This document shows positions 28,156 through 31,047 of a stretch of 64,000 nt of DNA, one piece after another. The translations under genes were made by a program, and so were the position numbers. Within the stretch, counting starts at the first letter, position 1. The number at the start of each line of letters is the position of its first letter. Where the stretch lies: NCBI RefSeq assembly GCF_003574735.1, contig NZ_QORW01000008.1, forward strand, positions 186,001 to 250,000, given 5' to 3'. The stretch is from Dongia deserti. Lineage in GTDB: Bacteria > Pseudomonadota > Alphaproteobacteria > Dongiales > Dongiaceae. The notes under the pieces were generated by a model. That model was not told where the DNA came from and made no database searches. It was given only the letters and a program-made list of their open reading frames with translations.

Positions 28156-28196
28156 AGGAGGCGAAGCCTCTTGCGCCGGTTCTTCGCCTGTGTATT

Positions 28197-28213
28197 GTTA
28201 CGTTATAACATTC
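28197..28213. promoter_or_regulatory. Zur-box-like palindrome
   Basis: GTTACGTTATAACATTC has the core GTTATAAC, perfectly symmetric, with partly matching flanks. This resembles the alphaproteobacterial Zur/Fur-type operators built on GTTATAAC. It lies 15 bp before the start codon of the zinc-binding protein gene, where a repressor would block it. Symmetry outside the core is imperfect. Confidence 0.5.
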
Positions 28214-28228
28214 TTAATGGAGCGCAGA

Positions 28229-29170
28229 ATGCGTCGTTTGGTGTGGGTGGCCGGATTGCTGGCCATGATGGCGGCTGTTCCGGGTGTGGCCTGGTCGCAA
28301 GAGAAGCTGGCTGTGGTGGCGACCTTTTCCATTCTGGGCGACCTCACCCAGCGAATCGGCGGCGATCACGTCCAGGTCCTGACCCTGGTGGGCCCGAATG
28401 GCGATGCGCACGTGTTCCAGCCGGGCCCGAAGGAATCCGCCGCGCTCGGCAAGGCCAGCGTCCTGATCGCCAACGGCCTCGGGTTCGAGCCGTGGCTGCA
28501 TCGCCTGGAAGAATCGTCCGGCTTCAAAGGCAAGCTGCTGGTCGCCACCGAGGGCATTACGCCACTCGCGGGTGCCGAAGAGCATGAAGGCGAAGAGGAA
28601 GAGCATGAGGGCGAGGAAGCCCACGAGGAGCATCACGATCACGGCGGCACAGATCCGCACGCCTTTCAGAACCTTTCCAACGCGCTGGTCTATGTCACCA
28701 ACATTGCGAAGGGCCTGTCCGAAGCCGCACCGGCCCATGCCGCTGATTTCAAGCTCAATGCCGACAAACTGAGCGCCGAGATCGCGGCGCTCGATGCGCA
28801 GCTGAAGGCCGATTTCGCGGCCATCCCGCAGGAACGCCGGCGCGTCCTCACCTCGCACGATGCCTTCCAGTATTTCGGCCGGGCCTACGGCATCGAATTC
28901 ATCTCCGTCCAGGGTGTCAGCACCGAAGCGGAGGCGTCCGCGGAGGATCTCGCGAAGATCGTGCGCCAGGCGCGGGACGGGCATCTGTCCGCGATCTTCC
29001 TGGAGAACATGAGCGACCCGCGGCTCGCGGAGACGGTAGCCCAGGAATCCGGGATTCGCGTGGGCGGCGAACTCTATGCCGATGCCTTGTCCGATCCCAC
29101 CGGCCCGGCGCCGGACTATTTGTCGCTCGTCCGCTACAACGCGAAGCAATTGCTCGCCGCCATGCAGTGA
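28229..29170 (+). CDS. Zinc-binding periplasmic protein, ZnuA/AztC-like
   Basis: A 313-aa cluster A-I metal-binding protein with a Sec signal (residues 1-23, ending AWSQ). The ligand His is in 'GDAHVFQP' (H61), the next in 'GTDPHAFQN' (H144) and a third in 'VLTSHDAFQYF'. Residues 116-140 form an acidic His-rich loop (AEEHEGEEEEHEGEE...HHDHGG) like the flexible loops of ZnuA. GGAG five bases before the ATG decides the start over an ATG four codons upstream. No permease or ATPase gene is near, so it either serves a distant ABC system or hands zinc to the ZevAB-like pair downstream. Confidence 0.85.
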   Translation: MRRLVWVAGLLAMMAAVPGVAWSQEKLAVVATFSILGDLTQRIGGDHVQVLTLVGPNGDAHVFQPGPKESAALGKASVLIANGLGFEPWLHRLEESSGFKGKLLVATEGITPLAGAEEHEGEEEEHEGEEAHEEHHDHGGTDPHAFQNLSNALVYVTNIAKGLSEAAPAHAADFKLNADKLSAEIAALDAQLKADFAAIPQERRRVLTSHDAFQYFGRAYGIEFISVQGVSTEAEASAEDLAKIVRQARDGHLSAIFLENMSDPRLAETVAQESGIRVGGELYADALSDPTGPAPDYLSLVRYNAKQLLAAMQ

Positions 29171-29176
29171 CGTAAA

Positions 29177-29200
29177 CTCCGCGCCCATTCAGACGCGGAG
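29177..29200 (+). other. Intercistronic hairpin
   Basis: CTCCGCG (29177-29183) pairs with CGCGGAG (29194-29200) around a 10-nt loop between the binding-protein gene and the small Cys-motif gene. There is no T run. It may protect or trim the upstream mRNA, but no function is shown. Confidence 0.35.
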
Positions 29201-29207
29201 CTGAGAG

Positions 29208-29513
29208 ATGAATGCTCGCCGGGAAGTGCTGCTCGGACTGGTGGCCGGTGCCGCCGGCTTTGGCCTGCTCTCGAGCCGTGCTTTCGCTTGGTATCTCGAA
29301 GAGATGACGCCGGATCAGGAAGCGGCCTTTCTCGAGGCCTGCCGTGCTGCGCCGGTCAAGCAGGCGGAGAATCATACCGGCCTCATTGCCGCTGCGCGCC
29401 AGAGCCTCGCACAGCGCATCGCCAACGGTCAGTTGCCGTCCGGTACGACCGAGCAGGTCGGCTGCCCGGTCTGCGGCTGCAGCTTCGTCGTGACTGCGGA
29501 CGGGACGAATTGA
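29208..29513 (+). CDS. Small exported protein with C-terminal CPVCGC motif
   Basis: A 101-aa protein. Residues 1-27 form a twin-arginine-like or Sec signal (MNARREVLLGLVAGAAGFGL, then SRAFA), then a helix rich in acidic residues ('WYLEEMTPDQEAAFLEACR') and a C-terminal 'GCPVCGCSF' that could bind a metal or form a redox pair. I do not recognise a family. It is placed in the zinc cluster between the binding protein and ZevA-like gene, and its stop TGA overlaps the TTG start of the next gene, so it is surely co-translated with it. A zinc chaperone or an assembly factor is a guess. Confidence 0.7.
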   Translation: MNARREVLLGLVAGAAGFGLLSSRAFAWYLEEMTPDQEAAFLEACRAAPVKQAENHTGLIAAARQSLAQRIANGQLPSGTTEQVGCPVCGCSFVVTADGTN

Positions 29514-30109
29514 TCCGGCGATTTGCCGCTATCACGCTTGCTCTATCCTGCCTGGTCGCCGCCCAACCGGCGGCGGCGCATCCGCACGTGTTCATCGACA
29601 ACAGGGTCACGTTCGTGTTCGACGGCGGGAAGGTTACTGCGCTGCGCCTCCACTGGGTGTTCGACGAGATCTTCAGCGATTCTCTGCTCGGCCAGTTCGA
29701 TGCCGATGGCGACGGAACGTTTGACAAGCTGGAAAGCGGAGCTGTCGGAGAAGGCGTTCTGCCCAACCTGCAGATGTTCAACTACTTCACCTACATCTGG
29801 ATCGACGGCAAGCAGCTCGATCCGATCAAACCGACCGATTTCATCGCGAGCGCGGATGACGCACGCATGGTGACGTTCCAGATGAAAGTGCCGCTGCCTC
29901 AACCCGTCGATCCGCGCACCGCTGCGGTGGCGGCAGAGATCTATGATCGCGAATACTACGTACAGGTGGATCTCGCCCAGCAGGACCCGGTGCTTCTCGA
30001 AAATGCCGATGGCGTTCCATGCAGCACCATGGTGCGCGATGATACGGAGAGCGCCTATTTCGGCGGTGTCATCATCCCGCAGGAGATTTCACTCCAATGT
30101 CGCCAATGA
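29510..30109 (+). CDS. DUF1007 family protein, ZevA-like
   Basis: A 199-aa exported protein. Sec signal to residue 24 (ending AQPAAA), and the mature protein begins 'HPHVFIDNRV', an exposed His pair typical of DUF1007. 'LHWVFDEIFSDSLLGQFDAD' followed by 'GDGTFDKLE' (an EF-hand-like acidic loop) also fits. In Haemophilus the homologue ZevA acts with ZevB in zinc uptake; other relatives accompany nickel/cobalt exporters. TTG start in the overlap TTGA. Overlaps the next gene by 13 bp. Confidence 0.82.
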   Translation: MIRRFAAITLALSCLVAAQPAAAHPHVFIDNRVTFVFDGGKVTALRLHWVFDEIFSDSLLGQFDADGDGTFDKLESGAVGEGVLPNLQMFNYFTYIWIDGKQLDPIKPTDFIASADDARMVTFQMKVPLPQPVDPRTAAVAAEIYDREYYVQVDLAQQDPVLLENADGVPCSTMVRDDTESAYFGGVIIPQEISLQCRQ

Positions 30110-31047
30110 AGCGGCGCGTACTGCCGCTGGTTGCGCTGGTCGTGCTTCTGCTCTCGTGGCCCCTGATTGTTCACGCTCAGCAGGCCGCACCATTGTTCCC
30201 GCCGCCGAGCAGCGATGCCGCCGAGCCGGCTGAGCCTGCCGCATCGCCGTCGCTGTGGCGCCAGGCCGCCGGCTTCGTCGTTCGCACGGAAAGCCAGTTC
30301 AGCCGTCAGCTCAACAAGCAGCTGGGCGCGATCCGCCGCGGCGATGGTTCGACTGCGCTTTTGGCCGGCGTCCTCGCCGCCTTTCTCTACGGCATCTTTC
30401 ACACGCTGGCCGTCGGTCACGGCAAGACCGTAGTGGTTGGCTACTTCCTGGGCAATCGCGCGCGACCCATGCATGGCATCGGGATGGCGAGCTGGATTGC
30501 AGTCAGCCACGTCATGGGCGCCGTCGTGGTCGCGCTCGTCGCGCACTGGATCCTCGCGCGCACCCTGATATCGCCGATCGAGCAGAATCACTGGATTCGC
30601 CTTGTCAGCTTCGGCGCCATCGCGCTGATCGGCGGCTGGATGCTGGCAGCGGCGTGGCGGCGCGTGCGCGGCACCGGCGACCATCATCACCACGACCATG
30701 ATCACCATCATCACGGCGGTGGGGTAGGGCATCGACGCCTCCTGGCAGTGGCGGCAGGCTTCGTGCCGTGCTCCGGCGCCATCCTGATCCTGACCTTCGC
30801 CTTCGCGAACGGGATCCTGGGCAGCGGGCTGGTGATGGTGCTGGCGATCGCCCTCGGCATGGCGCTCACCCTGGCCGGGCTGGGCCTGGTCAGCATGCTG
30901 GTGCATCACCAGGTTTCGCTCCGGCTGGCGAGCCGCAGCACCGCGACCCGGTGGCTCGGCCTCCTCGGGCCGCTCCTCATTCTGATCATAGGTGGGTTGT
31001 TGTTTTTGGCCGAACTCTCGATCCTCATTGTCGGGTCAAGCGGCTGA
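30097..31047 (+). CDS. NicO/RcnA-family metal transporter, ZevB-like
   Basis: A 316-aa inner-membrane protein with a signal-anchor N-terminus and six further hydrophobic segments. The NicO hallmark is 'GIFHTLAVGHGKTVVVGYFL' (about residues 100-120), and 'GDHHHHDHDHHHHGGG' (about 193-208) is a cytoplasmic-type His loop as in RcnA and ZevB. RcnA exports nickel/cobalt, whereas ZevB takes up zinc. The company of a ZnuA-like protein and DUF1007 favours zinc, but export cannot be excluded. The start lies inside the upstream gene's tail; ATGA at 30106 is an alternative start three codons later. Confidence 0.82.
   Translation: MSPMKRRVLPLVALVVLLLSWPLIVHAQQAAPLFPPPSSDAAEPAEPAASPSLWRQAAGFVVRTESQFSRQLNKQLGAIRRGDGSTALLAGVLAAFLYGIFHTLAVGHGKTVVVGYFLGNRARPMHGIGMASWIAVSHVMGAVVVALVAHWILARTLISPIEQNHWIRLVSFGAIALIGGWMLAAAWRRVRGTGDHHHHDHDHHHHGGGVGHRRLLAVAAGFVPCSGAILILTFAFANGILGSGLVMVLAIALGMALTLAGLGLVSMLVHHQVSLRLASRSTATRWLGLLGPLLILIIGGLLFLAELSILIVGSSG

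Follow-up and report, generated by a model that had tools for sequence, protein, structure and literature searches.

The zinc cluster studied here raises the question of where a zinc-binding protein delivers its metal when its gene is followed by a small gene for a 101-aa cysteine protein and a ZevAB-like DUF1007/NicO gene pair, apparently with no pump at hand. The initial annotation had proposed a zinc cluster lacking an ABC transporter, in which the binding protein would feed the Zev-type transporter. We analysed the locus within a window of 64,000 nucleotides (Dongia deserti, contig NZ_QORW01000008.1, positions 186,001 to 250,000 of the forward strand), the whole genome (rated 100% complete, 6.13 Mb, 51 contigs) and related genomes. 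The zinc reading itself was supported. The explanation that we consider very probable is a Zur-type zinc-starvation regulon of three operons, comprising a split AztABC-type pump, a ZevAB-type importer and a Tat-exported 101-aa protein with a zinc site.

Organization of the locus

All four genes of the initial annotation were found again by sequence reading and Pfam searches (Table 1), and its finer description was borne out as well: the palindrome upstream of the binding-protein gene is present and of Zur type, the binding protein has its acidic, His-rich loop and the NicO-type transporter its long His stretch, and in the DUF1007 protein the leader is followed by 'AHPHVF', which contains the His-Pro-His. 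Since the box TGTTACGTTATAACA falls within the mechanically called GTG open reading frame of the binding protein, the ATG at 28229 is the likelier start; a GGAG at 28219-28222 lies ahead of it. The binding-protein gene and the 101-aa gene are separated by 37 bases, and from the latter onwards the genes overlap as had been noted, the start of the DUF1007 gene reaching 4 bases into the end of the 101-aa gene. An inverted repeat (CTCCGCG/CGCGGAG, 29178-29201) that is not followed by a T run lies between the binding-protein and 101-aa genes and could affect the relative expression of its flanking genes. No Rfam family was found in the window.

Table 1. Position of the genes, motifs and predicted operator of the zinc cluster within the window
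Feature	Position	Strand	Basis
Zur-type operator TGTTACGTTATAACA	28196-28210	+	sequence reading; predicted site
AztC-like zinc-binding protein (ZnuA family), signal peptide	28229-29170	+	PF01297, 276 bits; probable ATG start
Acidic His-rich loop of the binding protein, EEHEGEEEEHEGEEAHEEHHDHGG	28571-28645	+	translation
101-aa protein with Tat leader and C...H...CPVCGC	29208-29513	+	family alignments A1, A4
DUF1007 (ZevA-like) exported protein	29510-30109	+	PF06226, 133 bits; TTG start
EF-hand-like loop of the DUF1007 protein, DADGDGTFDKLE	29699-29734	+	translation
NicO family (ZevB-like) membrane transporter	30097-31047	+	PF03824, 49.1 bits, cut-off 27.7
His-rich loop of the NicO protein, HHHHDHDHHHH	30682-30714	+	translation

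The binding protein and its probable ABC pump

The designation of the binding protein as ZnuA-like holds at the level of the family (PF01297, 276 bits) but not of the subtype, as its best model was NCBIfam AztC with 279.9 bits (below the cut-off of 350), whereas the ZnuA equivalog model reached 64.4 bits (below the cut-off of 268). Alignment to 5kzj/5w56 showed that the zinc-ligand positions of AztC, three His and one Asp, are kept as His61, His144, His210 and Asp285, counted from the protein starting at 28229. Among the AztC ligands, His138 and His204 are given in the literature (PMC7463823).

The binding protein is the sole ZnuA-family (PF01297) protein of the genome, which also encodes one strong ABC-3 permease (contig C1, position 426573; 184.5 bits) with an ATPase gene adjoining. 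The best models of this pair were AztB for the permease (262.3 bits, cut-off 280 missed) and AztA for the ATPase (216.1 bits, cut-off 220 missed). A second ABC-3 match (29.4 bits) was discarded on inspection as a permease of the FecCD type whose locus resembles one for haem uptake, and NF040872, tried as a model of AztD, was dropped because the accession belongs to another family. The claim that an ABC transporter is missing is thus contradicted by a permease and an AztA-like ATPase on C1, preceded by a Zur-type box. As this pair goes with a single binding protein, the pump-less reading fails, and the binding protein of the window together with the AztAB-like pump on C1 would form a split transporter of the AztABC type.

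A Zur-type box common to distant operons

The motif TGTTANNNNATAAC is rare, with 4 copies in 6.13 Mb where about 1.6 would be expected by base composition. This copy number is ordinary by itself, but the placement is unusual: the copies lie at the window cluster, at the ATPase-permease pair on C1, at a DUF1826 gene on contig C48 and at one contig edge, so that two of the four stand before the separate halves of a single predicted zinc transporter. The sequence TGTTAYGTTATAAC is common to the window operon and the ATPase-permease operon, the box upstream of the C1 ATPase gene being TGTTATGTTATAAC. Between the third Zur-type box (G000:C48, L099 5786-6777) and the DUF1826 gene downstream of it lies a 90-aa open reading frame, for which no Pfam match was found.

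The operator core of zrpW in C. crescentus, TGTTACTTTATAACA, differs from the window box by one base (PMC4176598). A candidate regulator is encoded on contig C33 by a Fur paralogue whose best model was Zur (138 bits against a cut-off of 167). Judged by sequence, the position of the window cluster behind a predicted Zur-type operator is supported.

Conservation of the split arrangement

The order binding protein, 101-aa protein, DUF1007, NicO is kept in ten further species, in one of which it is cut by a contig end, and in these ten the cluster is flanked by TANGO2 and SAICAR-synthase genes. Each of the 11 cluster-bearing species has a single PF01297 protein, which the cluster encodes, and a single strong permease, encoded on another contig. 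The strict box stands ahead of the binding-protein gene in 11 of 11 species and ahead of aztA in 9 of 11; of the two that remain, one begins at a contig end. Trees of the binding proteins and of the permeases resolve the same three main groups.

In other relatives the pump genes lie next to the binding-protein gene. The azt genes are contiguous in G108, G009 and G006 (azt group); in G250, G331 and G150 the ABC genes and zur are divergent from znuA-101aa-DUF1007-NicO; and in G005 (L149), which belongs to the same family, a single block holds NicO-DUF1007, the inverted 101-aa gene, znuA and zur-znuC-znuB. The initial annotation had itself named znuBC next to the binding-protein gene in relatives as a finding that would speak against its arrangement, and such neighbourhoods occur in L072, L074, L080, G108 and G005, which by its own measure counts against that arrangement. 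Conversely, the trio of 101-aa, DUF1007 and NicO genes also occurs without an adjoining binding-protein gene (L023, L076, L077, L084). In G009, the 101-aa gene alone is left between the TANGO2 and SAICAR-synthase genes (L028 8135-10458), and aztABC is contiguous on a contig other than this one.

These patterns bear on the proposal that the DUF1007/NicO transporter, and no ABC pump, receives the zinc of the binding protein, the 101-aa protein acting as go-between. A single operon with overlapping genes, conserved in 11 species while the ABC genes lie elsewhere, speaks for this proposal. We nevertheless give it next to no credence, considering the presence of one ABC zinc permease for one binding protein under the same box, the contiguity of ABC and binding-protein genes in all seven relatives mentioned above (G108, G009, G006, G005, G150, G250, G331), the four loci in which the trio stands apart from any binding-protein gene, and the specific pairing of binding protein and permease reported for P. 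denitrificans (PMC7731109).

The DUF1007/NicO pair

The assignment of the cluster's last two proteins as ZevA- and ZevB-like was supported (PF06226, 133 bits; PF03824, 49.1 bits). The DUF1007 protein is encoded in a single copy in the genome, the NicO protein is the best NicO match of the genome, and their adjoining, overlapping genes show the ZevAB-type arrangement. An EF-hand-like DxDxDGxxxxxE loop in the DUF1007 protein, possibly a site for calcium or another metal, has a similar acidic counterpart in 12 relatives.

NicO proteins include nickel and cobalt exporters, and the pair might accordingly move nickel or cobalt, or export metal, and only share an operon with zinc uptake. This would agree with the naming of PF03824 for nickel transport and with the NCBIfam model that the NicO protein matched best, one for nickel/cobalt efflux, which reached 44 of 195 bits and so stayed far under its cut-off. 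We regard it as quite improbable, since in 11 species the pair shares an operon under a Zur-type box with a zinc-binding protein, and in other relatives its neighbours are zur-znuCB and znuA. A role in zinc import is the reading that we prefer for the pair. We take H. influenzae ZevA and ZevB to be of the DUF1007 and NicO types, respectively. ZevAB of this organism has a role in zinc supply (PMC3872050, PMC10563805), and supports growth on low zinc (PMC3872050).

A small exported cysteine protein family

The protein with the CPVCGC motif had been described as belonging to no known family, and indeed no Pfam or NCBIfam match was obtained for it. Likewise, the plasmid collection gave no match, PHROGs nothing significant, and the literature no description of the family. 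The predicted structure is weak (pLDDT 61), and this model had no match in the PDB. The protein carries a twin-arginine (Tat-like) leader, and in 30 diverse members R4, R5, C45, H56, C86, P87 and C89 never vary, whereas C91 is almost invariant. The leader together with this Cys/His/CPxC set suggests that a metal site is formed before export. Family matches were present in 31 of the 385 genomes of an even sample of the class; in a phylum sample of 397 genomes, whose make-up outside the class is not listed, they were confined to the same class. Scanning genome contigs with a profile of the narrow alignment returned only three close relatives, all metagenome-assembled according to their titles.

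Among 26 neighbourhoods of homologues from outside the organism's own family, 13 are linked to zinc: DUF1007/NicO or a binding protein is close by in nine, and in four a Zur-type gene follows the 101-aa gene immediately and in the same orientation (L062, L070, L073, L075). A crude null with four zinc loci per genome would predict about 0.4 zinc-linked neighbourhoods, giving a chance of about 1e-17 that is not to be read literally, since related genomes are counted as independent. The other 13 have no recognised zinc gene in the stretch fetched (L063, L064, L065, L066, L069, L071, L078, L079, L081, L082, L085, L086, L087), and Pfam searches with ten genes near such homologues revealed no zinc gene. 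This half favours the view of a redox or structural protein that has no tie to zinc handling and was placed here by chance, a view that deserves limited weight against the zinc-linked half, the four genomes in which the gene immediately precedes zur and the invariant Cys/His/CPxC set. We favour a periplasmic zinc-site protein, for which the role of a chaperone or reservoir would be likeliest.

Members of the family accompany three classes of binding proteins, namely AztC-like proteins, ZnuA and a third group (G010), which suggests that the 101-aa protein is a portable accessory. The same co-location with three classes of zinc ABC systems, along with the stable co-operonic placement, might point to a binding protein that serves AztAB and in addition shares zinc with the ZevA-like protein, either directly or via the 101-aa protein. 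Such sharing seems rather unlikely to us, and it cannot be obligatory, as the trio also occurs without a neighbouring binding protein.

The family is the new and most interesting part of the cluster: a small, apparently undescribed exported Cys protein recurring beside genes of zinc uptake and of zinc regulators. A broader reading can be offered tentatively, in which the 101-aa protein would be the founder of an as yet undescribed family of the Alphaproteobacteria, whose Cys/His proteins would use the Tat route to carry zinc out of the cytoplasm in folded form. In the periplasm they would act as a zinc chaperone or as a signal of zinc status, and their synthesis would be coupled to that of Zur or of zinc importers of three classes.

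A proposed model for zinc acquisition

The mechanism that we favour starts with falling zinc, upon which Zur would leave three boxes, those of the window operon, of the aztA-aztB-like operon on C1 and of the DUF1826 gene on C48. The binding protein would then take up periplasmic zinc and pass it to the ABC pump of AztAB type whose genes lie on C1, while the DUF1007 and NicO proteins may constitute a second zinc importer of the ZevAB type. Tat export would bring the 101-aa protein, probably folded with its metal beforehand, to the periplasm, where it could be a small Cys/His zinc-site protein that aids one or both importers as chaperone or reservoir. Derepression at low zinc, zinc delivery to the pump on C1 and a second route of the ZevAB type working in parallel are proposed by analogy with characterized systems (PMC7731109, PMC7463823, PMC4176598, PMC3872050); the direction of transport and the binding of Zur to its boxes are likewise presumed.

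An apparently pump-less zinc cluster would thus be half of a split ABC system, which was traced through genome context and a common operator. Moreover, a testable role in zinc is now proposed for an unnamed small exported family and, in this class, for the DUF1007/NicO pair.

Comparison with known systems

The closest counterpart is AztABC(D) of P. denitrificans. The ATPase and permease genes of such a system are present in the genome (C1), and binding protein, permease and ATPase score best with the models of AztC, AztB and AztA, with the aligned ligand positions kept and a Zur-type box. Unlike in AztABC(D), the genes are split over two operons on different contigs, the scores stay under the strict cut-offs, and the gene of the binding protein shares an operon with ZevAB-like genes. 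The ZnuABC-Zur loci of relatives (L072, L074, L080, L149) have the same trio beside znuA and zur-znuC-znuB, whereas the binding protein of the window is AztC-like and zur and aztAB lie elsewhere. The Zur regulon of C. crescentus has Zur-type operators as well, but with other targets, and DUF1007/NicO is absent from those described in the accessible text (PMC4176598). Finally, H. influenzae ZevAB resembles our pair at the level of families, an exported protein of the DUF1007 type coming before a transporter of the NicO type; in D. deserti, in contrast, the pair is preceded, under a Zur-type box, by the genes for the binding protein of a zinc ABC system and for the 101-aa protein.
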